From positions 1 through 64,000 of the forward strand of contig CAMKRZ010000001.1 in NCBI GenBank assembly GCA_946415315.1: a DNA stretch of 64,000 nucleotides. Reading direction: 5' to 3'. Position 1 is the stretch's first letter. Each line of letters starts with the position of its first letter. The notes below the pieces were generated by a model, which saw only the letters and a list, made by a program, of their open reading frames with translations, made no database searches and had not been told where the DNA came from. The stretch is from an uncultured Lachnoclostridium sp. (GTDB lineage Bacteria; Bacillota; Clostridia; Lachnospirales; Lachnospiraceae). The translations under genes were made by a program, and so were the position numbers. Positions 1-28,410 of the stretch are shown here, in pieces.

Positions 1-281
1 AATACTTCCGAGTGATAGGTGAGCTGGAATATGTCAGAAAGCTGTATATCGATCTACTTGGAGATCGATACCGGCTGGAGAGTAAGCTGAATCGCGAAAT
101 TGACAGGCTGCCGGAAGCTGAAAAAGCTGCAATCCGGAGCACATTTATCACCAGTGGAAACCCTGCGGAATTATGGGAAAAACTCATTAAATTGACAGAT
201 TTAATTTACAGGGAACTCGAAGGATATAGTGTACCTGTGACAAAGGAATTACTGCACAAGTATTTTAAGGGACTTATGTAA
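1..281 (+). CDS. C-terminal part of an unidentified protein, possibly a nucleotidyltransferase
   Basis: The reading frame is open from the left window edge (first full codon at 3) to TAA at 279-281, so only the C-terminus is present. A GTG at 12 could start a short protein, but no ribosome binding site can be seen before it and the frame continues upstream without a stop. The visible residues are helical and mixed-charge, with LLGDRYRLESKL near the left edge and ending HKYFKGLM. This resembles the helical C-terminal half of aminoglycoside-type nucleotidyltransferases, but the catalytic half is off the window, so the assignment is a guess. It is the first member of the same-strand gene array. 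Confidence 0.45.
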   Translation, partial: YFRVIGELEYVRKLYIDLLGDRYRLESKLNREIDRLPEAEKAAIRSTFITSGNPAELWEKLIKLTDLIYRELEGYSVPVTKELLHKYFKGLM

Positions 282-297
282 GACAGCTTACACTTGC

Positions 298-311
298 CAA
301 ATTCGAATTTG
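298..311. repeat. 14-bp palindrome CAAATTCGAATTTG, copy 1
   Basis: A perfect 14-bp palindrome 17 bases after the stop of the preceding gene and about 45 bases before the next start. It is followed by GTCGAGATTGTTAT. The same palindrome and a similar right flank recur at 21637-21650, and a degenerate version with a closely matching flank lies at 8114-8127. Confidence 0.75.
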
Positions 312-356
312 TCGAGATTGTTATCTTTTAATCTTTTTAGCGGAGGGAACTTACGC

Positions 357-644
357 ATGAATAAGAAAATGGTAATCATTAGAACTCTGGAGACTCTTCT
401 GCAAATACTTATTGTCCCTTGTTGTATCATAGGAGATTGGACAAGTACATATCAGGGATCGTATGGAATTGAATACCGAAAGGATAACTTCCTTGACGCG
501 GCAGTATTGTTTGATTCGGATTATCTGGCTACAATCGTTGTCGCTATGCTTGCTGTTGTGATTATAATTCTGATATGGACGAGGGCAGCAAGGTTTGCCT
601 TCATCCCTGCGATGTTGCAGTCGAGTAACTGGACCTGTGAGTAA
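357..644 (+). CDS. Small membrane protein of unknown function
   Basis: I do not recognise this 95-residue protein. The ATG at 357 is chosen because GCGGAGGG (about 341-348) sits at proper distance; an upstream frame extension has no ribosome binding site. Two hydrophobic segments are visible: one near the N-terminus (LLQILIVPCCIIG) and one about residues 63-78 (ATIVVAMLAVVIIILIW), each probably spanning the membrane, with an acidic/aromatic loop between. It ends shortly after the second segment with a polar tail (SSNWTCE), so it may be a truncated version of a longer protein. It lies directly behind the palindrome at 298-311. Confidence 0.6.
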   Translation: MNKKMVIIRTLETLLQILIVPCCIIGDWTSTYQGSYGIEYRKDNFLDAAVLFDSDYLATIVVAMLAVVIIILIWTRAARFAFIPAMLQSSNWTCE

Positions 645-785
645 TGTCGGTTAAATAAATATAGTAGCGACTGAGCCTCAATTGAAACATATAAAATGAA
701 GCCATTTTTATGAGATGTGATATCTGTGGAAATTACAAACTAAACGCGACTAATCATTATTCAAGTTGGATGGAGGCTCCTGATT

Positions 786-1859
786 ATGCCCAGATCAGTT
801 ATTGAAATGTTTGATATTCCTGAAGTGCTGGAACCTTCTTTCGTGGATTTGCTTTCTGATGGCGAGCTGTTTGGAATTAAAGGTATCTGGCAGCTTTCCT
901 ACCGTGATTTAAGAACTAAAAGAATTGCAATCAGTAATGAAGGTGATCTTTCGCGGTTTACGTTTAACGATGCGACGATTTTTCCGCCGGGATTATCTGA
1001 GATAGCGGGGAAGGTAATGGAAGAAGGTAAGTCAGGAAGAATCTTGAATCACGATGGCCTGACGGGAAAAGGGGTTAAGGTTGCCGTAATTGATAAGCCG
1101 TTGAACCCGAATCATAAGGAGTTTGAGTCAAGGCTCGAGGTAATTAAGGTCGAACCGGATAATGAGAACCATGATTCATTGGATTTTCACGGTATGACAT
1201 GTGCATCTCTTCTTGCCGGAAAATCTTGCGGGATCGCCCCGGAAGCAGTGATCAAATATTTTCAGATTCCTGATTCCGGAGACAGAAAGGAAATATCAAG
1301 GTATGCTCTTAAGGCTCTGAAAAAGATCGTCGAGTATAACCTGGAGAATACGGGGGATCCTATCCGATTGGTCAGCTGGTCCGGCGGGTTTACCGGGGAG
1401 GATATGGAGGAGAGAAACAACTACGCGCAAGTCCTTTCCGGAATGGGGTGTTATCTTATTGATGCCACAATGTTCATGCGCAATTTCGGCGGGATTGACT
1501 TCAACCCGTATGCTGAGTGCAATGAAAAGAAATATTCCTTGAATCAGTGGCAGTTAGATAATTATGAGAGAAACAAGGAGCGACCGGGTTTTACGGAGTG
1601 GTTTGAAAACTGCTGTTATGTACCTTCCTCGCGTTGCACTGCAGCTTCGGATGATATAGCAGACGGCTATATTCACTGGGGAAAAGCTGTTTCTGAAAGC
1701 TGGACAATACCGCAGGCCGTCGGTGCCATGGCTTTATGTCTGCAAAAGAGGCCTGAACTTACGTATGAATCATTTGTGGCATTAGCAAAGCAGTGCCCCA
1801 GATTGAATGGCTTCGTCATTTTGAATGTTGACAGCATTGTTGAGGCTTTGCAAAAATAG
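786..1859 (+). CDS. Intracellular subtilisin-like serine peptidase (S8 family)
   Basis: This is a 357-residue subtilase. The catalytic triad can be read as Asp103 in VAVIDKPLNPNH, His135 in DFHGMTCASLLAG and Ser305 in SESWTIPQAVG, which stands where most family members have GTSMAxP. The usual GTS is therefore altered although the serine is kept. There is no signal peptide, so it should act in the cytoplasm. The oxyanion-hole Asn is not obvious. A GGAGG (773-777) lies before the ATG. It is followed by the first two copies of the intergenic TTTCGG motif. Single-copy S8 enzymes of this type occur in clostridial genomes with unknown substrates; I infer peptide-bond hydrolysis only. Confidence 0.8.
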   Translation: MPRSVIEMFDIPEVLEPSFVDLLSDGELFGIKGIWQLSYRDLRTKRIAISNEGDLSRFTFNDATIFPPGLSEIAGKVMEEGKSGRILNHDGLTGKGVKVAVIDKPLNPNHKEFESRLEVIKVEPDNENHDSLDFHGMTCASLLAGKSCGIAPEAVIKYFQIPDSGDRKEISRYALKALKKIVEYNLENTGDPIRLVSWSGGFTGEDMEERNNYAQVLSGMGCYLIDATMFMRNFGGIDFNPYAECNEKKYSLNQWQLDNYERNKERPGFTEWFENCCYVPSSRCTAASDDIADGYIHWGKAVSESWTIPQAVGAMALCLQKRPELTYESFVALAKQCPRLNGFVILNVDSIVEALQK

Positions 1860-1867
1860 TTACGATA

Positions 1868-1881
1868 TATTTCGGAATTCC
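1868..1881 (+). repeat. Intergenic TTTCGG motif, copy 1 (TATTTCGGAATTCC)
   Basis: Begins 8 bases after the stop codon of the subtilase. It matches the left half of the array motif (consensus TATTTCGGnnTTACG); the right half is degenerate. Confidence 0.5.
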
Positions 1882-1906
1882 AGGCGATAGGAGACTATCT
1901 TTTAAG

Positions 1907-1920
1907 ATTTCGGTAATACG
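1907..1920 (+). repeat. Intergenic TTTCGG motif, copy 2 (ATTTCGGTAATACG)
   Basis: Second copy between the subtilase and the convergent LysR gene. It has a TTACG-like right half (TAATACG). Confidence 0.55.
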
Positions 1921-2000
1921 GAACGGATAATCAGTGTCATCGTGTCATCATAAATTAAGAGAAAATGCCGGCGAGAGACATCTTGCCGACCTTTTTATTG

Positions 2001-2885
2001 TTAATGGTTATTTGTAAACGATACATATAATTGCTCGAGAAATTTTTCCGCTATGGGTGTAAAAGTCTGGTAGCGGTTCCATGCGATATAAAGCTTTGTC
2101 TCCGCTTTCGGAGCGAGTGGTCGGAATACCAGTCCGCTGCCCTCTGAAGTATTAATCAGGTGATCGAAGGTCAGAAGGTATCCGAGACCTTCTTTGGCAA
2201 AGATGGAACCGTTGTAGGAAAGACGGAAGGAACCTTCCAACTTCATTTCGGAAAATGAAGACCCGGCCCACTCCTTTATCTCATTATTCCATGCCTGCTC
2301 AGAACAGAAAAGAGGCAGTCCGATCAGGTCTTTTGCATGGATAGTCTTTTTCCTTGCCAGCGGATCATCCGCGGGTATAACAAGACCCCATGTATCACCT
2401 TCCGGGAATTCGATGTATTCGTATTTGTGGCTGTCCGGGTACTCTGCAAGGACAAGAAAGTCCAACAGCCCTTTATCGAGTTTGTCTGCGATTTGTTCTG
2501 TGTCGCCGCTTGTGATGTGATAATGCAGGTTGGGATAACGTGACTTAAATTCTTTTATTACTCTCGCAAGGTATTTGATCCGGTAGGATTCCGCAAGACC
2601 CAGATAAAGTTCACCGCCGGTGATGTCATCGAGGGATACGAATTCCTGCTCTATCTTATCCGCCATGCTGATCAGGTCTTCCGCACGGTTCCTTAAGAGG
2701 ATGCCTTCGTCCGTAAGACGGATACTGAAGCTGTGACGGGTAAAGAGTTTCTTTCCCAGTTCGTCCTCAAGGGATTTTAATTGCTTGGAAAGCGTGGGCT
2801 GTGTGACATGCAGAAGTTCCGCAGCGCGGGTCATGTTTTCTTCCCTTGCAGCAGCAAGGAAGTATCTTAGTGTTCTGATTTCCAT
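2001..2885 (-). CDS. LysR-family transcriptional regulator
   Basis: The protein has about 294 residues, the normal length for LysR regulators. The N-terminal winged helix-turn-helix is clear (MEIRTLRYFLAAAREENMT, then RAAELLHVTQPTLSKQLKSL), followed by a linker helix and a substrate-binding domain (GELYLGLAESYRIKYLARVI). I use the ATG at 2885 rather than 2891 because AAAGGAAA is then 7-8 bases upstream, whereas it would overlap the other start too closely. It is transcribed divergently from the three genes starting at 3026, and a dyad at 2910-2934 lies between them, so it probably controls that operon and itself. The inducer is unknown. Confidence 0.92.
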   Translation of the reverse strand: MEIRTLRYFLAAAREENMTRAAELLHVTQPTLSKQLKSLEDELGKKLFTRHSFSIRLTDEGILLRNRAEDLISMADKIEQEFVSLDDITGGELYLGLAESYRIKYLARVIKEFKSRYPNLHYHITSGDTEQIADKLDKGLLDFLVLAEYPDSHKYEYIEFPEGDTWGLVIPADDPLARKKTIHAKDLIGLPLFCSEQAWNNEIKEWAGSSFSEMKLEGSFRLSYNGSIFAKEGLGYLLTFDHLINTSEGSGLVFRPLAPKAETKLYIAWNRYQTFTPIAEKFLEQLYVSFTNNH

Positions 2886-2909
2886 GAGCATTTTCCTTTC
2901 ATATTCGCT

Positions 2910-2934
2910 GTGATATGCATAATTGGAATATCAC
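2910..2934. promoter_or_regulatory. Probable LysR binding site
   Basis: GTGATAT and ATATCAC form a 7+7 dyad with an 11-base spacer, matching the T-N11-A architecture of LysR boxes. It is placed between the LysR gene and the divergent operon, where such sites normally lie. Confidence 0.6.
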
Positions 2935-3025
2935 GATATTCATTATAACCATTAGCGAAGAATCTTTCAAGCGTTTATGATAGGAACTGTAAAGAAAAGA
3001 ATTGATGCAGGAAGCGAGGAATGCT

Positions 3026-3262
3026 ATGGATCTGAAACGCTTGAAGCAGTATTTGTCTGATGCGGGGTGCTGCAAAAATACATCTGACGACATCATAAGG
3101 ATGTGTGAAGCCGGAAACATGGAAGGTGCCCTGCACATGATGAGAAAAGACCGGTGCAGGCTGATGGATGAGCTGCACGAGAGCGGGAGGAAGGTCGATT
3201 GCCTGGACTATCTGATCCGTACCACGGAAAATGCACTCAAAATGAGCCAGGTACATACGTGA
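3026..3262 (+). CDS. Small conserved helical protein, unknown function
   Basis: A 78-residue soluble protein beginning MDLKRLKQYLSDAGCC. The start at 3026 follows GAGGA with good spacing; earlier in-frame starts lack a site. It looks like two or three helices ending in HESGRKVDCLDYLIRTTE. I recall similar short proteins beside regulators in clostridial genomes, but I know of no experimental function. It is the first gene of the LysR-divergent operon, 62 bases before the hydrolase gene. The position suggests an accessory or adaptor role for that operon, which is inference. Confidence 0.65.
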   Translation: MDLKRLKQYLSDAGCCKNTSDDIIRMCEAGNMEGALHMMRKDRCRLMDELHESGRKVDCLDYLIRTTENALKMSQVHT

Positions 3263-3324
3263 AATATGTCATGAGGATGCGAAGCATTTGAGTGGCATGG
3301 CGAAAACAAAAAACGGAGGAAATC

Positions 3325-4320
3325 ATGATGATGAAGACAGAAGAACTGAAACTGACACAGGAATGGGATAAGACTTTTCCGAAAAATGACAAAGTCAATC
3401 ACAGTAAGGTGACATTTATCAATCACTTTGGGATTACACTTGCCGCAGATATGTATGTACCGAAGAGTTGCGAAGGAAAGTTTCCGGCAATCGCGGTTTC
3501 CGGACCGTTTGGAGCGATCAAGGAACAGTCCTCCGGGCTGTATGCGCAGGAGATGGCTTCGAGAGGATTTCTCGCAATCGCGTTTGATCCTTCTTTTACC
3601 GGCGAGTCCGGCGGATTTCCGAGGGACATGCACAGTCCGGATATCGACGTGGAAGACTTTCAGGCCGCGGTGGATTATCTTGTGAACCGGGACGATGTAG
3701 ACCCGGAGCGGATCGGGATCATCGGCATCTGCGGATGGGGCGGCATGGCGCTTCAGACGGCCTGCCTGGACACGCGGATCAAGGCAACCGTTACCTCCAC
3801 CATGTATGATATGTCCCGCGTGGCCGGGAATGGGTATTTCGACTCCGCAGACGACGAGGAATCGAGATATCAGATGCGCATGGCAATTAATCAGCAGCGG
3901 ACGGTAGATTACAAAAACGGCGGGTATGCCCATGCGGGCGGCGTCGTGGATCCGCTTCCGGAGGATGCGCCTTACTTTGTGAAAGATTACTATGCATACT
4001 ATAAGACATCGCGGGGATACCATGCGCGCAGCCTCAATTCCAACAACGGTTGGAACGTGACGGCAGGGACATCCTTGATGAACACACGCCTGTTCACGTA
4101 CGCGAAGGAGATCCGCAGCGCCGTATTGATGATTCACGGGGAGAAAGCGCACTCCTGCTACATGTCCAAAGACGCGTACGCGGACATGGTAAAGGACAGT
4201 AAGTACGCAGCGAACAAGGAACTGCTTATCATCCCCGGAGCAAGCCATACAGATCTTTATGACCGGATGGACATCATTCCTTTTGATCGGATCCAGGCAT
4301 TTTTCGAAGAAAATCTGTAG
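3325..4320 (+). CDS. Alpha/beta hydrolase with a cysteine nucleophile
   Basis: The protein has about 331 residues and is related to dienelactone-hydrolase-like and YcjY-like alpha/beta hydrolases. The nucleophile elbow reads GICGWGG, so Cys136 replaces the usual serine of GxSxG; cysteine is the known nucleophile of dienelactone hydrolase. The histidine of the triad is probably in PGASHTDLYD, and the acid is likely near MIHGEKAHS. There is no signal peptide. CGGAGGAAATC precedes three consecutive ATGs; I use the first. It is the second gene of the LysR-divergent operon, 17 bases before the metallo-hydrolase gene. The substrate is unknown, but detoxification or turnover of an ester or lactone is plausible. 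Confidence 0.82.
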   Translation: MMMKTEELKLTQEWDKTFPKNDKVNHSKVTFINHFGITLAADMYVPKSCEGKFPAIAVSGPFGAIKEQSSGLYAQEMASRGFLAIAFDPSFTGESGGFPRDMHSPDIDVEDFQAAVDYLVNRDDVDPERIGIIGICGWGGMALQTACLDTRIKATVTSTMYDMSRVAGNGYFDSADDEESRYQMRMAINQQRTVDYKNGGYAHAGGVVDPLPEDAPYFVKDYYAYYKTSRGYHARSLNSNNGWNVTAGTSLMNTRLFTYAKEIRSAVLMIHGEKAHSCYMSKDAYADMVKDSKYAANKELLIIPGASHTDLYDRMDIIPFDRIQAFFEENL

Positions 4321-4337
4321 GAAAAGAGGACAGGATA

Positions 4338-5828
4338 ATGCAAAAGAGAAAAATGAGAAAGGGAGTGAAGGTCTTGCTGATCGTTCTCGGAAGCATCGTT
4401 GGTCTGTGCCTTTTGGTTGCAATAGCCGGGCTTTTGTTTCTTTCGTTCTGGCCCTCGGTCGGGAAGATGCCGGGAAAGAAGGAACAGGAGGCATATGCGA
4501 AGAAGAGCGAGTTGTACTACGACAAGAAATTTCATAATGAGATTGATTTTACGGTAATGACCGGAAAGCAGGACACCACGAGTGATCGTAAAGTTCCCAA
4601 GGAACAGTTGAAGGCGGTAAATCCGACATATGCCGAGCACGGGCAGGAGGGCGGACTGGTGATCACCTGGATTGGTCATTCCTCGGTTTTACTGCAGCTA
4701 GGGACAACCAACATCCTGATCGATCCGGTGCTTGGAAACCGTTCCTCGCCTGTGTCATTTGTCGGACCGAAGCGTTTCTCAGAGTGCCCGGTGACCGCGG
4801 AGAGTCTCCCGGAAATAGATGTACTGTTCGTCTCCCATGATCACTATGACCATCTGGAGTACGGCACGATCAAAGACATCGATGCCAAGGTGAAGCGGTA
4901 TGTCGTGCCGCTCGGTGTGGATGTAATATTGAAAGGCTGGGGTGTATCCGAAGATAAGATTACTGCGCTTAACTGGTGGGAGGAAGTGACATGGGACAGC
5001 GTTACGTACGCGCTGACACCGTCGCTGCACTATACGGGACGGAATCCGCTTAAAGGAAACAGCACCCTCTGGGGCGGTTTGTTTGTAAATGACGGCGCCC
5101 ACAAGGTATACTACACCGGAGACGGCGGATACTACGATGTGTTCTCCCGCGTCTACGAAAAATACGGTGAAGTTGACTTGATGTTAGGGGATTCGGGACA
5201 GTATGACACCGCATGGGCGACTACGCACATGTTCCCGGAACAGACAGTGCAGGCAGCTATTGATGCACACGCAAAATGGCTCATTCCGGTGCATTGGGGA
5301 ACATTCTCCCTTGCCAACCACGCCTGGGATGATCCGATTATCCGCGTTGCCTCCGCAGCGGAAACCAAAGGGGTTAATCTGGCTACGCCGAGGCACGGAC
5401 AGACGATTGATTTTGCCGAGATATCGGTAAGCACGGAGCATTGGTGGGAGGACAATCGCAGAACAATGGAAGGAAAAGCCTTAAAACTCAGGATCGGGGA
5501 AACTGAAGTTTCCGTCGAATGGGAGGACAACGAATCAGTCAAGGCGCTTCAGGCGCTTGTCGCCGACAAACCGCTTACCATATCCATGTCGATGTACGGC
5601 GGGTTTGAACAGGTCGGCTCTCTCGGGACCGTACTTCCGAGACAGGACAAGGAGATCACCACCGAAGCCGGAGACATCGTGTTGTATTCGGGAAATCAGA
5701 TCGTTGTGTTTTACGGATCGAACTCATGGGCATACACAAAGCTTGGAAAGATCACGGACAGGACCGCTTCTGAGATGAAAAATCTGCTCGGAAACGGAAA
5801 TGTGTCTATTACTATTAGCACAGAATAA
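4338..5828 (+). CDS. Membrane-anchored metallo-beta-lactamase-fold hydrolase with cyclophilin-like C-terminal domain
   Basis: This 496-residue two-domain protein starts with one transmembrane helix (about residues 12-38). It continues with an MBL-fold domain of the UlaG/NAPE-PLD-like type: HSSVLLQ near 114 and the zinc motif HDHYDH at 167-172, then TGDGGYYD and PVHWGTF carrying further ligands. The last 115 residues (from about LKLRIGETEVSVEW) match a cyclophilin-like domain, ending in VSITISTE. The catalytic domain probably faces outward. It is the last gene of the LysR-divergent operon and is followed by a terminator at 5885-5908. It may hydrolyse lipid-derived or lactone substrates together with the preceding hydrolase; this is inference. 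Confidence 0.85.
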   Translation: MQKRKMRKGVKVLLIVLGSIVGLCLLVAIAGLLFLSFWPSVGKMPGKKEQEAYAKKSELYYDKKFHNEIDFTVMTGKQDTTSDRKVPKEQLKAVNPTYAEHGQEGGLVITWIGHSSVLLQLGTTNILIDPVLGNRSSPVSFVGPKRFSECPVTAESLPEIDVLFVSHDHYDHLEYGTIKDIDAKVKRYVVPLGVDVILKGWGVSEDKITALNWWEEVTWDSVTYALTPSLHYTGRNPLKGNSTLWGGLFVNDGAHKVYYTGDGGYYDVFSRVYEKYGEVDLMLGDSGQYDTAWATTHMFPEQTVQAAIDAHAKWLIPVHWGTFSLANHAWDDPIIRVASAAETKGVNLATPRHGQTIDFAEISVSTEHWWEDNRRTMEGKALKLRIGETEVSVEWEDNESVKALQALVADKPLTISMSMYGGFEQVGSLGTVLPRQDKEITTEAGDIVLYSGNQIVVFYGSNSWAYTKLGKITDRTASEMKNLLGNGNVSITISTE

Positions 5829-5884
5829 AGTCATCGTCATTGAGCACAGGAATTGAAGACAATTGATGTTTTCGGAACGCGCAG

Positions 5885-5908
5885 AAGGAGGACTGAGGTC
5901 CTCCTTTT
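5885..5908 (+). terminator. Rho-independent terminator of the LysR-divergent operon
   Basis: Perfect 9-bp stem AAGGAGGAC / GTCCTCCTT with loop TGAG, followed by a short T run. It lies 57 bases after the metallo-hydrolase stop. Confidence 0.8.
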
Positions 5909-5961
5909 GCTATAGACGGTTGTTTACGGATGTGTTAGAATAATTCGAAAGAACATCGTAG

Positions 5962-5976
5962 TATTTCGGAATTACG
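5962..5976 (+). repeat. Intergenic TTTCGG motif, copy 3 (TATTTCGGAATTACG)
   Basis: Exact consensus copy, 18 bases before the TTG start of the next gene. Together with AATTCGAAA at 5942-5950 it can fold into a stem with one unpaired G. Confidence 0.7.
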
Positions 5977-5993
5977 ATTTAAGGAGTTGCACG

Positions 5994-6245
5994 TTGAAGA
6001 CTTTGATCTATTACAAGCCGGAATTTGTTGACCCGGCAAGAAAGCTGCGCGAGAATTACATTGCACACCGTCACGAAATAGCGGATATCGTTTCTGAAGA
6101 AGAACAGAATGATATTGCATATGCAAGGAAAATGCTATATGACGAAGCAATATTCATTGAAGATTCAGAGACAGTAATTATCCATGACATTGCGTCGGGA
6201 AATACAAGAAGATGTCCTGTTACAGAAGTTTATTATCGGGATTGA
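5994..6245 (+). CDS. Hypothetical 83-residue protein with TTG start
   Basis: I do not recognise the family. The TTG at 5994 is chosen because AAGGAG at 5981-5986 is 7 bases upstream and no ATG is available. The protein is soluble and mixed-charge: KTLIYYKPEFVDPARKL, then a helix rich in Glu (IVSEEEQNDIAY), then a beta-rich end (FIEDSETVIIHDIASG). It sits between a TTTCGG motif and a member of the repeated GWKACYD family, in the gene array. Length and composition would suit a small antitoxin-like or regulatory protein, but there is no direct evidence. Confidence 0.55.
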   Translation: MKTLIYYKPEFVDPARKLRENYIAHRHEIADIVSEEEQNDIAYARKMLYDEAIFIEDSETVIIHDIASGNTRRCPVTEVYYRD

Positions 6246-6303
6246 TATTTTGGTTAGTAGGGCGATTATCGTTGAATAAAACGTGCGATGGAGAGAGCAA
6301 GGT

Positions 6304-6762
6304 ATGGCAAAAACTTCTAAAGAAAAGAAAAAAGCCAGACTTCCTGCAGAATACTCAGAGGGTATGCTTCATTTCAAGACAGGTCCGGGATGGAAGGCCT
6401 GTTATGACAGTGAAAGGGAGCTTTATACCGCTGAAAGCTTTTGGGAGGGTTACTACGATCTTTATGAGATTAACGAGGAAATATTTTACAAACTGAAGCC
6501 GAAAGGCAAAGATCGCAGAGAAGCCCATGAACTGATCCATACCGGCAGGCATTTGTATAAAAGCGTCAGTGACAACAACGGTTCATACGATATTGCACTT
6601 GATGAAGACTATGCCTCTTTCTGTCCATGGGCTGACATACAAAAAACAGGAGAGATGTGGGATTCGGAATTGACCGATCTGGCAGTGAATGTTTTTGAAT
6701 CCGAAAAACAAAATCGCGAACAGCGACGCAAAAGACGTGAAGAACAGGAACGGAAAAATTGA
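6304..6762 (+). CDS. Novel repeated-family protein A (GWKACYD/CPWA domain)
   Basis: This 152-residue protein is one of three relatives in the window (the others are at 15968 and in the N-terminus of the 22877 gene). Shared features in order are GWKACYDSERELYTA, a W-x-G-x-Y-x-LYEI segment, a GRHLYKSV segment, LDEDYASFCPWAD, a GExWDxExTD segment, and a basic coiled C-terminus (NREQRRKRREEQ). The N-terminus is also basic (KTSKEKKKAR). The start at 6304 follows GGAGAG. I know no named family for it. The Cys-Tyr-Asp and Cys-Pro-Trp positions are conserved, but no catalytic chemistry can be deduced. Confidence 0.7.
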   Translation: MAKTSKEKKKARLPAEYSEGMLHFKTGPGWKACYDSERELYTAESFWEGYYDLYEINEEIFYKLKPKGKDRREAHELIHTGRHLYKSVSDNNGSYDIALDEDYASFCPWADIQKTGEMWDSELTDLAVNVFESEKQNREQRRKRREEQERKN

Positions 6763-7017
6763 GTTGAGAGATACTATCTTTGGGATGATCTGAATGTCGC
6801 TCGGTTGAAGAGGCTTCACGCAGATATTGTCCTTTGGCCTGTTTATACGGATTTCAATTACGAAGAATGGAATAAAACCATAAAAAATGAGTATGCTGAA
6901 CAGGTTGCCCGCATTGGTCATGGCGTCTGTCTGGTAAATTCGGTATGCTTGGAGAGAGAAGGCTCTGAAATAATATTTCGGTATTGCGCGCTACAGGACG
7001 GAGTATGGCATGTTTGA
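6763..7017 (+). pseudogene. C-terminal fragment of a carbon-nitrogen hydrolase (nitrilase superfamily)
   Basis: In frame directly after the preceding stop, about 84 codons encode RYYLWDDLNVARLKRLHADIV and then LWPVYTDFNYEEWN and YAEQVARIGHGVCLVNSV. This resembles the segment following the nucleophile cysteine of nitrilase-type amidohydrolases. The N-terminal half with the Glu and Lys of the triad is missing, and Leu stands where CWD or CYD would be expected. No convincing start exists (the first TTG is at 6805). The last codons run through the TTTCGG motif at 6974, which suggests that the gene was cut at the motif. I read it as a decayed gene fragment. Confidence 0.5.
6974..6988 (+). repeat. 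Intergenic TTTCGG motif, copy 4 (TATTTCGGTATTGCG)
   Basis: Preceded by TAA as at other junctions (TAATATTTCGG) and followed by CGC. It lies 21 bases before the next start. Here the TAA is out of frame with the nitrilase fragment, so that frame reads through the motif. Confidence 0.65.
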
Positions 7018-7522: not shown

Positions 7523-7675
7523 TCAGATCGGCGGCTGGTGCCATAAGGATTTACGGATATTTTGACACCGGCGGAAAAGGTTTTATTTGTCGACGCAAAT
7601 TGAGGGGCATTTTGAGTGTGGATAGCACAACGTGAGATGTTGTAAGTAAATTCAAATTTGAGGAGAAAAGCAATC

Positions 7676-8113: not shown

Positions 8114-8127
8114 CAAATTCCGGTTTG
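8114..8127. repeat. Degenerate copy 2 of the 14-bp palindrome (CAAATTCCGGTTTG)
   Basis: Starts immediately after the stop codon of the preceding gene. The right flank TAGAGATTATTAT matches the flank of the copy at 298-311, and it runs directly into a TTTCGG motif at 8140-8154, showing that the two motifs form one composite element. Confidence 0.65.
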
Positions 8128-8139
8128 TAGAGATTATTA

Positions 8140-8154
8140 TCTTTCGGCATTATG
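8140..8154 (+). repeat. Intergenic TTTCGG motif, copy 5 (TCTTTCGGCATTATG)
   Basis: Thirteen bases after the palindrome at 8114-8127, in the same orientation as all other copies. It lies 44 bases before the next start. Confidence 0.6.
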
Positions 8155-8198
8155 AACTGTAGAGAAAGACAAAGCGGAGCCTGTGGAGGTAAAACATT

Positions 8199-8750: not shown

Positions 8751-8781
8751 TAAATCAAATTCCATTTTAGATAGTTCTTTA

Positions 8782-9800: not shown

Positions 9801-9813
9801 AGCGGCAGGAAAA

Positions 9814-20117: not shown

Positions 20118-20199
20118 AGTTCACATAATACGAAGATACTTGAGCAAGAAACTTTTGGTTTTATAGACGATAACAAATCGGCAGTTTATAGGAGACTTG

Positions 20200-21078: not shown

Positions 21079-21107
21079 ATTAAATCGGCGTTTGACGAGG
21101 TAGCTGT

Positions 21108-21632
21108 ATGGTGCAACTGATAAAAAGATGTCCGGAATATGTGATGGGATACAAGGAGTATTGTCAGGAATTGTATGATAACCATGTCACCTATTTCAGA
21201 CCCACAAACCCAAAGAATATTGATAATGAATGGTTTTTTCGTACCAAGTCGTGGTATGACAGGAAAGAACAGGGATTGGTAGAAGGCCAACCCGTCAGTT
21301 TTCATTATTGGGCAATCGACAACGGAAAATTCATAGGAGAATTTCAACTCCGAACCGAATTTCCCGAAAAGGTAATGTTGGATATTGGAAGCATTGGTTA
21401 TGCAGTTAGAGTATCGGAACAAGGAAAAGGATATGGCAAAGAGATTCTTCGCCTTGGGTTGGAACTTGCAAAGCAACACGGCATGGAAAAAGTGTTGCTG
21501 ACAATCAACGACGAAAACAAAGCCTCCATTCAAGTATGTGAAAAACTGGGCGGTATCTGGAAAGACACCATAGAAGCATATAATGATGCGGAGGGGCAAC
21601 ATTTGTTAAGACGATATTGGATAACCCTTTAA
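21108..21632 (+). CDS. GNAT-family N-acetyltransferase 6, RimJ/RimL type
   Basis: A 174-residue acetyltransferase. GYAVRVSEQGKGYGKEILRL is the cofactor loop and NKASIQVCEKLGGIWKDTIE the C-terminal signature. The N-terminal YVMGYKEYCQELYDNHVTYF is unlike that of the other GNAT proteins here and probably sets a different substrate. GACGAGGTAG lies before the ATG. The stop is followed at once by the palindrome at 21637-21650. Confidence 0.87.
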   Translation: MVQLIKRCPEYVMGYKEYCQELYDNHVTYFRPTNPKNIDNEWFFRTKSWYDRKEQGLVEGQPVSFHYWAIDNGKFIGEFQLRTEFPEKVMLDIGSIGYAVRVSEQGKGYGKEILRLGLELAKQHGMEKVLLTINDENKASIQVCEKLGGIWKDTIEAYNDAEGQHLLRRYWITL

Positions 21633-21636
21633 TTGT

Positions 21637-21650
21637 CAAATTCGAATTTG
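21637..21650. repeat. 14-bp palindrome CAAATTCGAATTTG, copy 3
   Basis: Identical to the copy at 298-311, with the related right flank TTGAGGTTGATAT. It starts 5 bases after the preceding stop and 23 bases before the next start. Confidence 0.75.
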
Positions 21651-22254: not shown

Positions 22255-22303
22255 GGGGTAAATGATACAACGGATTGTAACAAGAAGACCATAGACAGGG
22301 ATA

Positions 22304-22318
22304 CTTTTCGGCTTTACG
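22304..22318 (+). repeat. Intergenic TTTCGG motif, copy 11 (CTTTTCGGCTTTACG)
   Basis: Fifty bases after the transporter stop and followed by CGCGTATAGTTG. The ribosome binding site AGGAGGGGG lies 18 bases downstream. Confidence 0.6.
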
Positions 22319-22351
22319 CGCGTATAGTTGCATTTAGGAGGGGGCTTCAAT

Positions 22352-22858
22352 ATGACGATTGATCGAGCAACAAGGGAAGATCTGGAGGCCATCCTTCAAC
22401 TTCAGTATCTGGCATATCAATCGGAGGCAGAACTGTTCGGAACGCAGGATATCCCGCCACTCAAACAAACACTGGATGAGGTCATCAGGGAGTATGAAGA
22501 CGGCATCATTTTGCGAATGACGGATGAACAAAACAGAATCATCGGTTCGATTCGTGCGAAGGAACAAGACGGAACGGTGTACATCGGCAAGCTTATGGTT
22601 CACCCGGAGTATCGACGCAGAGGGCTTGGATCCGCACTGCTTACGGAGATAGAGAAGTGGTATCCGGGCAAGCGATATGAGCTTTTCACCAGCACGCGGA
22701 GCGTTGACAATATCCGTCTGTATCGAAAAATGGGCTACACACCGTTCAGGCAGGAAGCTGTTACAGATGAATTGGTGTTTGTGTATTTAGAAAAACGTAA
22801 GCCGATTCAATGTTGCGAAAACCAAGCAAATACTAAGTACTACTTGTGTAGAAGATAA
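22352..22858 (+). CDS. GNAT-family N-acetyltransferase 7
   Basis: A 168-residue acetyltransferase. It starts TIDRATREDLEAILQLQYLA, has the cofactor loop VHPEYRRRGLGSALLTEIEK, and the signature VDNIRLYRKMGYTPFRQE. The last 20 residues (IQCCENQANTKYYLC) look unrelated to the fold and may be a read-through into foreign sequence. ATG at 22352 follows AGGAGGGGG. Confidence 0.85.
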   Translation: MTIDRATREDLEAILQLQYLAYQSEAELFGTQDIPPLKQTLDEVIREYEDGIILRMTDEQNRIIGSIRAKEQDGTVYIGKLMVHPEYRRRGLGSALLTEIEKWYPGKRYELFTSTRSVDNIRLYRKMGYTPFRQEAVTDELVFVYLEKRKPIQCCENQANTKYYLCRR

Positions 22859-22876
22859 GTTCAGGAGAGGAATGCA

Positions 22877-24178
22877 ATGCAATTCAAAGAAGGACTCGGA
22901 TGGAAAGCGTGCTATGACGAAGAGAGAAACATTTACACGGCACAGAGAAGCTGGCGGGGATTTTACCAGCTTTGTGAGATCGATGCCGAGACGTATCGTA
23001 AACTCGGCGATAGTGCAAAAGCTGATAAACTGATTGGCAGCGGCAGAGTTCTGTTCGAGTCGGATGATGATTATTATACGCAGCGGTATTACAGGATTGT
23101 TGACGAGAATTACGACGAGCTTGCACCTTGGGCGAGCGCAAAATGGATTGCCGGAAAGTCGGACGTACTGTACAAGAGGGAAGAGGTCACCGGTCGGTTT
23201 CCGGGAGTGGCGTTTGCCTACGGGACTGCGGAGGCAAACAGTGCACAGTATTTTGGAGCCTCTGACGAGGAAGGCAGAACCAGTGTGGACAAGGAAACGA
23301 TTTTTCCGGCTTGTTCCATCTCGAAGTTTGTCACCGCGATCTGTGTGATGAAAATGCAGGAACAGAAGATGCTGAACATTGATGAACGAGTCAATGACCG
23401 CCTGAATCAGTGGAAACTTCTCAACGCAGACGGAGTGGAAAGTGATGCGACAATCCGGGCCGTCCTGAGTCATACTGCCGGGATTATCGACGGTGAAGAG
23501 GCATTTTACGGACTGCGCATCGGAGACCCTGAGGTCAGCCTGCTTGATATTCTGGAAGGAAGAACGAAATATAACAACCGGCCTGTGAGAGCGGAGCAAT
23601 CGCAAGGGACAGCTTTTGAATATTCAGATGCCGGTTATTGTGTTCTGCAGCAGATGATTCAGGATGTTACAGGCAAAGAATTCGCTGCCCTGCTGAACGA
23701 GCTGGTGTTTGAAGAACTGGGGATGGAGCACACATTTTTCGCCTCGCCGGCCGAACGGGAAAAGCATGAAGCGAACATGGCGACCGGCTTTGACGATGAA
23801 GGTTTACCGATTCCCGGAAAATTCCCGGTAACGCCGGATCTTGCCGCGTCGGGATTGTGGAGCACACCGAAAGATCTTTTGCTTCTTGCCGCAGAATTCA
23901 TTCGAGCCCTTGATGGGAAAAGTACATTTTTACAGGCGGACAGCGCACGCGAAATCATAAAGCCCGTGGAGAATTTTCCGTGGGTCGGGCTCGGCGTCTT
24001 CCTCGACGGGGCGGACACCATTGTTTCCAAAGGGTGGGGAGAAAACGGGCAGTGCATGATGAAGCTGCACCTTCAGTCCGGTGAGATCTCCGTCGTTATG
24101 ACAAACAAAAACCCGGGCGTGGATCAGGCGGAATCCGGCGTTGAATGGCTGGTGGACAGTTACGGCTGGTTTCTTTGA
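22877..24178 (+). CDS. Novel repeated-family domain C fused to a class-C beta-lactamase-like serine hydrolase
   Basis: A 433-residue fusion. Residues 1-90 are the third copy of the family at 6304 and 15968 (GWKACYDEERNIYTAQRSW, GRVLFESDDDYY, VDENYDELAPWASAKW), without the basic tail. From about residue 100 a serine hydrolase of the AmpC/esterase type follows: SxxK is Ser147-Ile-Ser-Lys150 in ACSISKFV, the tyrosine motif is YSD at 249-251 in FEYSDAGYC (YxN in classical enzymes), and KGWGENG may correspond to the KTG-like triad. There is no signal peptide. ATG at 22877 follows AGGAGAGG. The hydrolase could be an esterase or peptidase; resistance activity is not implied by the fold. Confidence 0.85.
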   Translation: MQFKEGLGWKACYDEERNIYTAQRSWRGFYQLCEIDAETYRKLGDSAKADKLIGSGRVLFESDDDYYTQRYYRIVDENYDELAPWASAKWIAGKSDVLYKREEVTGRFPGVAFAYGTAEANSAQYFGASDEEGRTSVDKETIFPACSISKFVTAICVMKMQEQKMLNIDERVNDRLNQWKLLNADGVESDATIRAVLSHTAGIIDGEEAFYGLRIGDPEVSLLDILEGRTKYNNRPVRAEQSQGTAFEYSDAGYCVLQQMIQDVTGKEFAALLNELVFEELGMEHTFFASPAEREKHEANMATGFDDEGLPIPGKFPVTPDLAASGLWSTPKDLLLLAAEFIRALDGKSTFLQADSAREIIKPVENFPWVGLGVFLDGADTIVSKGWGENGQCMMKLHLQSGEISVVMTNKNPGVDQAESGVEWLVDSYGWFL

Positions 24179-24194
24179 GATTTTTCGAGGTCAT

Positions 24195-24209
24195 TATTTC
24201 GGTATTACG
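24195..24209 (+). repeat. Intergenic TTTCGG motif, copy 12 (TATTTCGGTATTACG)
   Basis: Exact consensus, 16 bases after the fusion-gene stop. It is preceded by TTTTTCGAGGTCAT, reminiscent of the palindrome flank. Confidence 0.7.
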
Positions 24210-24238
24210 ACGGAACAGGTATGATGGGGAGGTATATC

Positions 24239-24612: not shown

Positions 24613-25122
24613 ATGAGCAATTTGCAGATCAGAAAAATGACATACGATGATATCCCTCTTATATGCAAGGCGGAAAATGATGAAGCAGAATCCAATGTTG
24701 AGTATCTGAAGAATCACATGGAAAACCAGGAGAACAAAAAGTGCTCAGCGTTGATCGCGCTCTATGATGATCAAATCGCCGGACATGTGTTCTTATACTA
24801 CGAATGTAAGTGGGGCGGTTTGAAAAAACAAGGATTGCCAAGCGTGGTGGATTTAGCTGTGTATGAATTGTACAGAAGAAAAGGCATTGCAACAGCGCTG
24901 ATGGATGCTGCGGAAAGCGAAGCGCGAAAGTTTCATTCAAAGATCTATCTGGATGTCTGTTTGAACAGTGAGTATGGCCCGGCACAATGTTTTTACATAA
25001 AGAGAGGGTATGTTCCCGATGGCGCGGGGGTTTATTTTGAGGGGGAAGTACTCGGATTAAACGCGCCGTGCAGAAATGATGATGAATTATCACTGTGTCT
25101 TGTGAAGGAGTTGAAAGGATAA
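24613..25122 (+). CDS. GNAT-family N-acetyltransferase 8
   Basis: A 169-residue acetyltransferase: LQIRKMTYDDIPLICKAEND at the start, LAVYELYRRKGIATALMDAA as the cofactor loop, and PAQCFYIKRGYVPDGAGVYF as the C-terminal signature. TTGGAGGTTTTG lies before the ATG. The stop overlaps the start of a partial TTTCGG-like motif. Confidence 0.88.
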   Translation: MSNLQIRKMTYDDIPLICKAENDEAESNVEYLKNHMENQENKKCSALIALYDDQIAGHVFLYYECKWGGLKKQGLPSVVDLAVYELYRRKGIATALMDAAESEARKFHSKIYLDVCLNSEYGPAQCFYIKRGYVPDGAGVYFEGEVLGLNAPCRNDDELSLCLVKELKG

Positions 25123-25136
25123 TTCTGTATTACGAG
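25123..25136 (+). repeat. Intergenic TTTCGG-like motif, copy 13 (TTCTGTATTACGAG)
   Basis: Starts right after the TAA stop. The right half TATTACGAG is intact; the left half has TTCTG in place of TTTCGG. Confidence 0.4.
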
Positions 25137-25155
25137 CAAAAAAGGAGGTGCTTTC

Positions 25156-25563
25156 ATGACTTATGCAGTAAGGTATTATACCAAGACAGGAAACACGAAG
25201 CGGCTTGCGGAGGCAATCGCCAAGGAACTGGGAGTAGAGGCGCTCCCCATCAGCGAACCGGTCAATGAGGCAGTGGACTATCTGTTCCTCGGGAATTCGT
25301 ACTATGCCTTCACGATCGATCCGGAAGTGAAGGCGTTTGTGGCGTCTCTTGACAAGAGTAAGATCGGAAAGATCGTCAATTTCGGTTCTGCCGCGATGCT
25401 CAACTCGACGTACAAGAAAGTGAAGAAGGTAGCCGACAAAGTAGGGATTGCCATGGATGAGAAAGAGTTTCACTGCAGGGGTGAATTCAAGGGCGTCCAT
25501 AAGGGCAGACCGAATGAGGAGGATATCGCCGCGGCAGTTGAATTTGCTAAGCAATACAAGTAA
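25156..25563 (+). CDS. Flavodoxin-like protein
   Basis: A 135-residue protein with the flavodoxin fold. The FMN phosphate loop reads YTKTGNTKRLAEAIA after the first strand, followed by FLGNSYYAFTIDP and IVNFGSAAMLNSTYKKV. It is expected to carry electrons in the cytoplasm using FMN. GGAGGTG lies before the ATG. The stop is 19 bases before the next gene, so the two are likely co-transcribed. Confidence 0.85.
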   Translation: MTYAVRYYTKTGNTKRLAEAIAKELGVEALPISEPVNEAVDYLFLGNSYYAFTIDPEVKAFVASLDKSKIGKIVNFGSAAMLNSTYKKVKKVADKVGIAMDEKEFHCRGEFKGVHKGRPNEEDIAAAVEFAKQYK

Positions 25564-26316: not shown

Positions 26317-26341
26317 AAAGGAGAGCTTCGGCTCTCCTTTT
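26317..26341 (+). terminator. Rho-independent terminator with TTCG tetraloop
   Basis: Perfect 10-bp stem AAAGGAGAGC / GCTCTCCTTT around a TTCG loop, followed by TG. It lies after the flavodoxin/membrane-protein unit and the TetR relic. Confidence 0.8.
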
Positions 26342-26440
26342 GTGATGGACGCGGACATCCGAATATGGTACAATAGAAAGAAACCATTTTTCGGTGTTTC
26401 GATATACGGGGATGACAGCCACCGGGGAGGAGTAATAGAT

Positions 26441-26547
26441 ATGTCGGCAACAGGCAGAGATTCGCGGGATGCGATGGACAAGGAAACAATGAGGATACGG
26501 ATGGATTCAAACGCTTGCTGAACAAATACGTGGAATACAGTGCATGA
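26441..26547 (+). pseudogene. Frameshifted remnant of an unidentified small gene
   Basis: ATG at 26441 follows GGGGAGGAG and reads SATGRDSRDAMDKE before stopping at 26521. The frame entered near 26490 continues EDTDGFKRLLNKYVEYSA to 26547. The two look like one broken coding sequence. The upstream 95 bases (26342-26440) contain a degenerate TTTTTCGG motif at 26385 and no gene. Confidence 0.35.
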
Positions 26548-26560
26548 CAGGAGAACGCAA

Positions 26561-27040
26561 ATGGATACTTGCAATTGGTGCAACTTATCGGAAGAAGATA
26601 AACAATTTCAGTTGTGCGAAAGCAAATCATGGTATGTGTTCCTTTCCGATGAGCAGGACTATATCGGACGATGCATATTGGTTTTGAAGCGTCATTGCAA
26701 CTCCTTGTCGGAGCTGAAGGATGATGAATGGGACGAGCTTCGTGATCTGATTGGTAAAGTGGAGGAGTGTCTAAAGACTGTTTTAGGGGCAACTCTATGT
26801 AATTGGAGCTGTCTGATGAATAGCTTCTATAAAGAACCGGCGCCTGATCCACATCTTCATATTCACGTAAGGCCGAGATATGACAAGCCGGTAGTGCTTA
26901 ACGGGCACACTTATACGGATAGCGAGTTCGGTCATCATTACGCATTGAAAAAGAGCGTGGTTATACTTGCCGAAGATAAGAACGAATTGTTCAGACAGCT
27001 AAAAGAATGGCTGAATTTGCAAAACTGCGATGAGGAGTAA
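26561..27040 (+). CDS. HIT-family nucleotide-binding protein
   Basis: A 159-residue HIT (histidine triad) protein. The signature HLHIHVRPR near the C-terminal third is the phosphate-binding active site, and the N-terminal CNWCNLSEEDKQFQLCES contributes cysteines that could bind zinc. Members hydrolyse or transfer nucleotidyl groups. ATG at 26561 is 7 bases after AGGAG. It overlaps a possible upstream start of the rhomboid gene by 11 bases. Confidence 0.87.
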   Translation: MDTCNWCNLSEEDKQFQLCESKSWYVFLSDEQDYIGRCILVLKRHCNSLSELKDDEWDELRDLIGKVEECLKTVLGATLCNWSCLMNSFYKEPAPDPHLHIHVRPRYDKPVVLNGHTYTDSEFGHHYALKKSVVILAEDKNELFRQLKEWLNLQNCDEE

Positions 27041-27056
27041 GGATGATTATCGGGAA

Positions 27057-27665
27057 ATGAAACAAAAGAAACTGACTTGTATAGCGATTATTTCAATGGT
27101 TATCATTTTTCTGGCGAATCTTCTGGCTTCGACAGAATACAATCTGTCTGCCGTTTTCCTGACCGGCGGAGGAAATCTGGTGGATTATCTGGGAGTATCC
27201 AAAACGACCGTTTTTGAGCAATACCAACTGTACCGTCTGATCACGTATGGTTTCACTCAGGCATCCGTAATTCACCTTTTGGCGAATAGCATTGCCTTGT
27301 GGTTTGTGGGGGGATTCTTCGAAAAATACGTAGGCAAAACAAAACTGATCATCATATTCCTTGTGGGGCTGATCATCCCGGGAAGTGGTTTGGCTTTCCT
27401 GTTCCCTGAGGGCTTGCATTATGGTGCTTCGCCCGCGATCTTTGCACTTATCGGAGTTCTGGTGAGCTGGGCGTTGAGAGAGAAAGACTTGTGGAAGACA
27501 TACAGGGCACAGATGGGATTTGGATATGTTGTCGGCTATTTCTTTCTGGGAAATATTTTAGGCGTCGCAACACTTGTGTTTCATTTGTTGGGGTTTGGCA
27601 CAGGGCTTCTGTCAGGGCTCGTATTGAAAAGAAAGGGGTATGTAAATGAACACCGTCTGGTCTGA
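27057..27665 (+). CDS. Rhomboid-family intramembrane serine protease
   Basis: A membrane protein of about 202 residues with six hydrophobic segments. The catalytic serine is in HYGASPAIFAL (GxS motif) and the histidine in LVFHLLGFGTGLLSG; HLLANSIALWFVGGFFEKYV is the conserved HxxxN segment on the second helix. It cleaves transmembrane substrates within the lipid bilayer. The start is uncertain: ATG at 27057, or ATG at 27030 with no ribosome binding site. I use 27057 with GAGGAGTAAGGA 12 or more bases upstream. Confidence 0.85.
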   Translation: MKQKKLTCIAIISMVIIFLANLLASTEYNLSAVFLTGGGNLVDYLGVSKTTVFEQYQLYRLITYGFTQASVIHLLANSIALWFVGGFFEKYVGKTKLIIIFLVGLIIPGSGLAFLFPEGLHYGASPAIFALIGVLVSWALREKDLWKTYRAQMGFGYVVGYFFLGNILGVATLVFHLLGFGTGLLSGLVLKRKGYVNEHRLV

Positions 27666-27703
27666 AAATGTTCAGGGGCTTGCGATTGATCAGGAGGAAG
27701 AAG

Positions 27704-28159
27704 ATGACAGAAAAACAGATTAAAGCAACAGAGTGTTTCAACAATCATATGCACTGCTCACAGTCCGTTCTGTTCGCATTTGCCGAAGAATGCGGGATTA
27801 CGGAAGAAACGGCATTTCGACTGGGCTCGTGCTTCGGGAGCGGGATGCGAAAGGGCAACGTATGCGGAGCCTGCACCGGGGCGCTTATGGTCCTGGGGTT
27901 ATTGTTCGGTGAACGCCGTATGGGTGACAGCGAAGAGAGGCAGCGGTCAAATCGGATCAACGATGAGTTTATGAACCGCTTTGCGATGGCAAATGGGACG
28001 TGCATCTGCAACGAACTGCTCGGCTGCGACATTTCCACGCCGGAAGGCGTTCAGTATGCAAGGGACAACGGCCTGTTCAAAGATTTCTGTCCCAAGATGG
28101 TCGAAAGCGCGGTCAAAATACTGGAAGACATGATCGCGGAACAAAGAAATGCCGAATAA
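27704..28159 (+). CDS. C-GCAxxG-C-C family redox-type protein
   Basis: A 151-residue protein of the C_GCAxxG_C_C family. Cysteines are visible in HMHCSQSVLFAF, LGSCFGSGMRKGNVCGACTG, NGTCICNELLGC and DFCPKM, the expected spacing. Members are thought to bind metals or iron-sulfur clusters and often sit beside redox genes; no enzymatic activity is established. ATG at 27704 follows AGGAGG. Confidence 0.85.
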   Translation: MTEKQIKATECFNNHMHCSQSVLFAFAEECGITEETAFRLGSCFGSGMRKGNVCGACTGALMVLGLLFGERRMGDSEERQRSNRINDEFMNRFAMANGTCICNELLGCDISTPEGVQYARDNGLFKDFCPKMVESAVKILEDMIAEQRNAE

Positions 28160-28179
28160 ACAAGATTGTTACGGAAAGT

Positions 28180-28335
28180 AGCAGCCCTGTTACGGTTCGT
28201 TTCTTGACCGTTGCGAAACTTCTGGATGTGAGCACGGACTATTTTCTGGATGACGGCGCCACGCTGGATATTACGGATAAGAAATTTGAGATCGGTGACA
28301 AAAAGTTCCGGGTAATGGGGATTGTGAAAGAGTAA
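28180..28335 (+). pseudogene. Fragment of an XRE-type regulator
   Basis: The frame read from about 28180 encodes VRFLTVAKLLDVSTDYFLDD, a typical end of an XRE helix-turn-helix domain, then a tail (DITDKKFEIGDKKFRVMG) and TAA at 28333-28335. No start or DNA-binding helices 1-3 are present, so only the C-terminal part of the gene remains. With the terminator and promoter below it explains most of the 345-base gap between flanking genes. Confidence 0.5.
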
Positions 28336-28366
28336 TCTTTCTTCTGCGTTGAAAGGAAAACTAAGG

Positions 28367-28410
28367 AATACCAAGAGCTGAAGGCATTTGCTTTCGGCTC
28401 TTTTGGTATT
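28367..28410 (+). terminator. Inverted repeat, probable terminator at the end of the array
   Basis: AATACCAAGAGCTGAAGG (28367-28384) pairs imperfectly with CTTTCGGCTCTTTTGGTATT (28391-28410). Long stem with a few mismatches, short loop. No strong T run on either side, so termination is likely but not certain. Confidence 0.5.

Follow-up and report, generated by a model that had tools for sequence, protein, structure and literature searches.

The locus analysed here is an array of small genes with a recurrent 28-bp site in some of its junctions, which takes up the first 28,400 nucleotides of a 64,000-nucleotide stretch (hereafter the window) of contig CAMKRZ010000001.1 from an uncultured Lachnoclostridium sp. 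(GCA_946415315.1; our genome G000). Four kinds of described system come closest to it. The chromosomal (super-)integrons: these are built on IntI, attI and attC; the ends of attC read RYYYAAC and GTTRRRY, and the integron crossover falls at G^TTRRRY. The attC sites are recognised as folded single strands, as set out in PMC8618304. The present array resembles integrons in its long one-way row of small genes, its fixed leader site and the exchange of units between species; it differs in that no IntI was found and in its short, sequence-conserved site, which has no hairpin signal and has dif-like arms. The pdif modules (Re27, XerC/D): on Acinetobacter plasmids, PMC7399989 describes small accessory genes with dif-like borders, thought to be moved by the host Xer. 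The array likewise consists of modules with dif-like borders of 11-6-11 layout (two 11-bp arms about a 6-bp spacer), a clear site being seen in only 13 of 42 junctions; unlike the pdif modules it is chromosomal, with dozens of units, one recombinase, a leader site and a private spacer, TTTCGG. The Xer-using phages and islands: these exploit the host Xer through a dif-like site with one better arm, according to PMC5357621. We propose the same for the array, the difference being that its units are single genes and would recombine into their own array rather than into dif. The XerS/difSL system of streptococci and lactococci: its difSL is given in PMC5357621 as 31 bp with an 11-bp centre. Here too there is a single recombinase, best matched by the XerS model, with a site beside its gene; however, this site is palindromic with an 11-6-11 layout and the protein scores under the cut-off of the model.

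Integrons and Xer-bordered plasmid modules are already known; a one-way array on the chromosome that combines a leader, dif-like arms and a private spacer under a single Xer was not found for this clade in the open-access PMC papers, as far as the search terms used could reach. From the sequence comparisons below, we think it rather probable that these first 28 kb belong to a chromosomal gene-capture array run by the host XerS-like recombinase. That units are exchanged at the site is well supported; we infer XerS as the enzyme, circular unit intermediates and the route of DNA between cells.

The oriented site of the array

The array has 43 called genes and 42 junctions. All genes but one, a LysR gene at 2001-2885, lie on the plus strand, and the GC content in 2-kb steps is 39-50%, with more than 49% in 15 of the 18 steps downstream. 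In G000 (2.93 Mb, 42 contigs, 97.5% complete), further array pieces lie on contig C25 (reverse strand, ~12 kb) and at the end of C23, besides the window at the start of C1; C40 has one site. Contig breaks may fall inside arrays.

At up to three mismatches, TATTTCGGNNTTACG has 40 matches in the window against 17.06 in 100 shuffles (standard deviation 4.58, largest 32), none of which reaches 40. Motif discovery by expectation maximization on the whole of the intergenic sequence ended in a weak T-rich pattern, and a weight matrix built on the sites was used instead. Merging of near-identical flanks left 76 distinct sites; 58 or 57 of the sites were used, namely those that scored at least 12, came from 12 named stretches in five genomes and had enough flank. 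With a score of at least 9, scanning of the plus strand gives 14 intergenic sites in 13 of the 42 junctions, which bears out an original prediction of a gene-oriented motif in thirteen intergenic segments; the strong copies it named at 5962, 6974, 9814, 11975, 22304 and 24195 are present with 0-2 mismatches, all on the plus strand. Its statement that the motif runs in the same direction as the genes needs correction at the pair 1868/1906, which sits between convergent genes, and for the minus strand gene 2001-2885.

1-28,400 (+), cassette array, from the contig start to the last cassettes; based on called genes, junctions, GC and units common with relatives
714-741 (+), diverged site with arms GATGTGATATC and AATTACAAACT and spacer TGTGGA, left border of unit 733-1878; arms-only matrix, independent breakpoint 733
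1859-1886 (+), 28-bp site, crossover after 1875; matrix, unit end 3 bp away
1897-1924 (+), 28-bp site lying between convergent genes, 38 bp from the first of the pair; matrix
5953-5980 (+), 28-bp site preceded by a terminator/promoter-like block, crossover after 5969; motif, matrix, breakpoint
6965-6992 (+), 28-bp site; matrix
8131-8158 (+), 28-bp site; matrix
8773-8800 (+), 28-bp site; matrix
9805-9832 (+), 28-bp site, crossover after 9821; matrix, unit ends
11966-11993 (+), 28-bp site at which two different exchanged units have a border, crossover after 11982; matrix, breakpoints
12999-13026 (+), site with degenerate right arm, crossover after 13015, missed by the matrix in the window; breakpoint against stretch L099, whose copy is recognised
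14917-14944 (+), weaker 28-bp site, spacer TTTCAG; matrix
20142-20169 (+), weaker 28-bp site, spacer TTTTGG; matrix
22295-22322 (+), 28-bp site; matrix
24186-24213 (+), 28-bp site; matrix
25111-25138 (+), 28-bp site, spacer ATTCTG; matrix
26378-26405 (+), 28-bp site behind a terminator/promoter-like block; matrix

Since the matrix was trained on array sites, the strand and the background are the fair controls. With a score of at least 10.5, the plus strand of the array has 14 intergenic matches and one within a gene, its minus strand none that is intergenic and four in genes, and the rest of the window, on both strands, likewise none and four. At a score of 9 one intergenic match turns up on the minus strand of the array and another in the remaining part of the window. 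With a score of at least 13.5 (matrix built on 46 sites), nine array stretches of three genomes have 46 forward matches and no reverse one, whereas pdif sites are mostly in opposite orientation; in 176 kb of non-array sequence from the own genome, taken as ten stretches and scanned on both strands, there are four matches. At a laxer score, the intergenic matches in 23 stretches number 77 forward and 6 reverse. The whole genome has ten matches with at most one mismatch, six of them in 1-28,400, where one is reverse and inside a gene (26866). Within the genome stretches examined, the motif is thus not as common elsewhere as in the array. A GNAT-rich region of the same genome (C10:32,000-63,700, L029-L031) contains 16 of its 57 Acetyltransf_1 matches and no intergenic site among the 70 best matches of the stretches scanned; the motif therefore does not simply follow GNAT genes. 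This cluster is a useful negative control for the array site.

Exchange of units and the crossover point

The array was compared with stretches of 13 same-genus relatives and with some additional stretches. Fifteen units of the window have counterparts at 90-99.6% identity in other species of the genus, and for 12 of the fifteen the identity is at least 92%; beyond these, further high-scoring segment pairs (HSPs) are more diverged. All units in the list are classed as exchanged, apart from the one marked as shared.

733-1878 (+), subtilase-like protein unit; 96.8% to G005, other neighbours there
1924-5972 (+), 4-kb unit with LysR (minus strand), small protein, alpha/beta hydrolase and metallo-beta-lactamase-fold/cyclophilin-like genes; 98.7% to G005
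6261-6764 (+), small protein unit, no Pfam family; 95-97% in G005 and G014
7655-8124 (+), GNAT unit; 93% to G005
8182-8747 (+), GNAT unit, right end away from a site; 98.8% to G005
8906-9480 (+), GNAT unit, ends away from window sites; 99.1% to G014
9467-9817 (+), small protein unit, no Pfam family above cut-off; 92% to G005
10312-11982 (+), methyltransferase and S66 peptidase unit; 96.5% to G014
11976-12475 (+), GNAT unit; 98% to G005
12614-13015 (+), PAS-fold protein unit; 98% to G005
21082-21648 (+), GNAT unit; 99.6% to G002
22334-22810 (+), GNAT unit; 91.4% to G013
22853-24187 (+), beta-lactamase-fold (PF00144) protein unit; 90% to G013
25156-25563 (+), shared unit, flavodoxin-domain protein; 90.4% to G010
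26536-27102 (+), HIT-domain protein unit, right end inside the next gene, no site there; 97.9% to G005

The order of the units is scrambled between G000 and its relatives. On G005 contig C18, read in array direction, the shared units are those at 12614, 9467, 8182, 1924-5972 and 10312; in the same genome unit 7655-8124 is directly joined to 733-1878, which in the window stands 5.8 kb ahead. The right flank of the window array is colinear with G014 contig C27, which itself carries array units. Between G005 and G000 the array units have a mean identity of 95.3% (20 HSPs, 14 at 92% or more) and the aligned core 77.1% (13 HSPs, 29 kb); for G014 the values are 94.5% (4 HSPs) and 78.1% (13 HSPs, 24 kb). 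The core figures are from aligned HSPs of at least 500 bp in the stretches compared, with the flank shared by C23 and G005 reported separately. The flanks of the array loci are at 89.5 and 84.8% (G005) and 91.6 and 86.8% (G014) on the guaA side, and at 93.0, 92.1, 91.1, 86.6 and 76.5% on the C23 side (G005). Several units, at 97-99.6%, lie above every flank value and thus moved recently between species.

The ends of the shared units concentrate at the site. HSPs below 88% identity or 180 bp, same-genome pairs and ends within 60 bp of a stretch end being excluded, 34 cross-genome HSPs have 63 internal ends, 17 of which lie within 10 bp of a site crossover (6.3 expected). With one HSP per unit (23 clusters, 41 ends), 15 ends lie within 10 bp (4.5 expected) and 8 within 3 bp (1.5 expected). 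None of the three counts was reached in 2000 runs of the main null, in which ends were placed at random in intergenic DNA; a uniform null was run too. Single units thus vary among the relatives in presence, place and order with ends at the motif, and both the modular gene-capture array that the original prediction had proposed and its conjecture that the motif marks exchange boundaries gain support.

At the right ends 5972, 11982 and 13015 the identity extends through TTTCGG and then stops, which places the crossover at TTTCGG^N, with N part of the next unit; the full crossover sequence is TTTCGG^NATTACG. This crossover, G^N, is not the G^TTRRRY of integrons, and the sites are conserved in sequence. 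A unit of 99.6% identity (L034 6757 and L113) does not have the same sequence at its two locations in the part that would be read as spacer. Hence, exchange can fall at the left edge of the spacer too.

The leader, the dif-like arms and the recombinase

The leader is a segment of ~100 bp that precedes the crossover and ends in the site. There are four copies at two chromosomal loci: one is represented by G000 C23 and G005 C16, the other, beside guaA, by G000 C25 and G014 C37. The left flanks are conserved: that of C23 is colinear with G005 at 91-92% up to ...GATAACTTTTGG^ and a few shared bases, and divergent beyond. The four leaders precede four unrelated first units, with different genes and no mutual blastn match above chance; in this they resemble the attI of integrons, a fixed site followed by a variable first cassette. 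Integrons have a promoter, Pc, that fires into the array; the leader here holds a conserved TATGTTACAAT, and a consensus promoter scan of it found no promoter. The array on G005 C18 adjoins guaA too, and no leader was found there. A terminator-like hairpin with a promoter-like block is seen in four places (window ~5885-5970 and ~26319-26401; L037 ~3398-3482; L048 ~6004-6070), in three of them directly before an array site; such blocks are perhaps secondary leaders.

The sole PF00589 match in G000 is a XerS-like protein of 351 amino acids, encoded on a contig other than that of the window (C3, L131:9280-10335), whose best NCBIfam model is XerS (NF003462; 187.6 bits, under the cut-off of 267). 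The search for a recombinase gene beside the array, which the original prediction had suggested as a check, yielded none: among the 40 array proteins scanned with Pfam there is no recombinase or transposase.

Just upstream of the XerS-like gene, all 10 genomes of the genus in which this stretch was available carry a near-palindromic 28-mer of 11-6-11 layout, which we take for a dif-like site, dif being the site at which a cell separates its chromosomes. Its commonest form is ATTTCGCTAAA-CGCAGG-TTTTACGAAAT, with arm variants in four of the 10 genomes (ATTGCGCTAAA... in G000). The spacers of 57 array sites are chiefly TTTCGG (33), TTTTGG (7) and TTTCAG (6). An arms-only matrix from these 57 sites, with the spacer masked, places the dif of G000 in the top 2.2e-5 of 1.38 million positions. 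When all 48 placements on the 51-bp dif region are scored, the expected one leads by far, at 13.6-14.2 in G000, G005 and G014; the runner-up is its palindromic mate (10.0-10.8) and the next is at most 5.1 (13.6, 10.0 and 3.5 in G000). When the arms are shuffled, the score of the G000 dif has p=1.4e-4 for composition and p=9e-4 for mirror-symmetric permutation; for single arms the values are 1.3e-2 (left) and 1.7e-3 (right). If the right arm is held in place and the spacer varied from 0 to 15, the score of the left arm is highest at 6. The same matrix ranks 714-741 high, a site with another spacer at the independently mapped border (~731-733) of unit 733-1878. As a separate observation, the arms-only matrix has its best match among the own-genome stretches at L043 482-509 (G000 C13 ~44,481): this is an almost perfect palindrome, GTAATGATATA-CTATAT-CATTACGAGCT, which adjoins DNA 90% identical to a stretch of the G005 array contig C16.

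In the mechanism that we propose, a unit would be a small gene or a few genes, with the right half-site (NATTACG...) as its left border and the left half-site plus the 6-bp spacer (...ATA|TTTCGG) as its right one; freed as a circle it would hold a single intact site of 28 bp, with the TTTCGG spacer between two 11-bp arms. The single XerS-like tyrosine recombinase of the host, normally acting on dif, would bind the arms of the array site, pair the circle with another array site or with the leader site, which is fixed at the start of the array, and exchange strands across the 6-bp spacer. The common spacer would let units recombine mutually, and because the spacers differ (TTTCGG in the array, CGCAGG in dif) units would join the array and not dif. 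A wider proposal, which we hold tentatively and put slightly short of an even chance, is that ruminant-gut Lachnospiraceae evolved an integron independently of IntI, by co-opting XerS, a recombinase of chromosome dimers, for an array set aside for gene capture, with dif-derived sites whose private spacer keeps units off dif: a third route to cassette arrays beside integrons and plasmid pdif modules. If an array behaves like an integron while resting on Xer-like sites, it would reveal a way in which single genes pass between gut bacteria; the turning of a chromosome-dimer recombinase into a gene-capture machine would become testable and, if true, a second natural cassette-shuffling chemistry would be offered.

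Several observations weigh against the proposed gene-capture array run by XerS. As to the site, 29 of the 42 array junctions have none that is recognisable, and 26 of the 41 unit ends lie more than 10 bp from any recognised one; the site is therefore not the sole source of rearrangement. Some unit ends fall inside genes (11344 against L099, 27102 against L113), and the end 6764 against L114 resembles a microhomology deletion between short repeats. The array-locus flanks, at 77-93% and mostly above 86%, are closer than the core average, so that the contrast of the units with their flanks is smaller than that with the core. As to dif, its match to the array arms is statistical. The layout was chosen after the right-arm match had been noticed, and the value corrected for 54 placements is ~1e-3. 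The dif variant of genome G008 scores lower with the arms-only matrix (top 7e-4), and the right-arm matrix alone gives a second dif stretch (TATTTCGCTAA, TATTGCGCTAA in G000) nearly the same score, 8.0-8.7 as against 8.8. As to the enzyme, PF00589 matches are present in 20 of 22 genomes of the genus (the remaining two are 82% and 79% complete), but the leader is found in only three of the 22 (25-mer search, up to three mismatches); the enzyme alone thus does not predict arrays.

The patchiness of the leader, together with the lack of a recombinase domain among the 40 array proteins, is what one would also expect if the site-specific exchange were real and its enzyme another recombinase, lost from G000 or brought by a mobile element, the arrays being relics or helper-dependent. 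The five PF00589 and six PF00239 matches of G005 also favour this. However, G000 and G014 have one PF00589 match each and no serine recombinase (PF00239), yet they have units in common at up to 99% identity, which points to recent exchange; the match of the array arms to dif also argues for the XerS-like protein. We consider another recombinase unlikely, though deserving of attention. It is improbable that the motif has a regulatory role, as promoter or leader, and that illegitimate or homologous recombination shuffles the units. Several sites do lie shortly upstream of start codons, a terminator/promoter-like block stands ahead of those at 5953 and 26378, and some ends have microhomology; but the pair 1868/1906 between convergent genes, the concentration of ends within 3 bp of the crossover and the GNAT-rich C10 region, with no intergenic match among the 70 best, speak against it.

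The integron itself was considered through its sites and its enzyme. Attachment-site hairpins of the attC type were rejected: the 57 sites have no clear covariation along stem diagonals (the attC covariance model was not run) and fold ordinarily (mean fold z -0.14, standard error of the mean 0.14). No IntI was found in G000, where the integron-integrase model TIGR02249 gives the sole tyrosine recombinase 69 bits against a cut-off of 265. A true integron, or attC sites without a nearby integrase (CALIN) on which IntI acts from elsewhere, would have the same architecture of one-way cassette array, leader site and small accessory genes, and the survey in PMC9024848 records CALINs, few in number, in Firmicutes, but given the integrase score, the missing hairpin and covariation signals and the crossover this can be set aside as very improbable.

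Occurrence in other genomes and gene content

The named relatives in the genus of G000 include metagenome-assembled genomes (MAGs) out of ruminant gut samples. Array-type sites probably extend beyond the genus, on thinner evidence. RGIG7104 (G042) has a XerS-like protein 51% identical to that of G000 and a row of genes with 5 of 11 plus-strand matches in junctions, with spacers TTTTGG and TTTTGA; no dif was recognised in the 22.5-kb contig that bears its XerS-like gene. AB2028 has two or three intergenic array-site matches. In YSB2008, AC2028 and NK2B42 the dif pattern matches beside the XerS-like gene or within 4 kb of it; AB2028 and P6A3 have 11-6-11 palindromes ~3-4 kb from theirs, picked by resemblance among several palindromes and with spacers specific to each lineage:

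L285 16586-16613, dif-like 11-6-11 palindrome of AB2028, spacer GTCTCA
L287 12185-12212, dif-like 11-6-11 palindrome of P6A3, spacer TGCGGA

Of 433 candidate stretches in the genome collection, 272 encode relatives of the small protein of unit 6304-6759, with many ruminant gut samples among the best 80 listed. Two contigs binned in MAGs of Spirochaetaceae (L165) and Paludibacteraceae (L168) carry a cassette 95-96% identical; they are probably misbinned Lachnospiraceae contigs. Plasmids searched for one unit (786-1856) gave no match, nor did Rfam against the window.

Pfam assigns nine of the 40 array proteins to the GNAT family, one fewer than the ten originally counted. The other assignments are subtilase-like, alpha/beta hydrolase, metallo-beta-lactamase-fold, S66 peptidase, methyltransferase, HD, PNPOx-like, AAA kinase-like, nucleotidyltransferase, chromate transporter, PF00144 beta-lactamase-fold, flavodoxin, HIT, rhomboid and C_GCAxxG_C_C; several proteins have no Pfam family. 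One family of small proteins without a Pfam match, seen at window 6304-6759, 15968-16360 and 22877-23140, forms separate cassettes in the arrays and also the N-terminal part of a beta-lactamase-fold protein. Among 10 selected array proteins, the PADLOC defence models assign a RhuM-like fragment to the candidate families PDC-S05/S23 and give two weak matches, with none for the other seven. This RhuM-like N-terminal fragment (9907-10332) has an open reading frame that overlaps the start of the methyltransferase gene, and the left end of the exchanged unit 10312-11982 falls within it.

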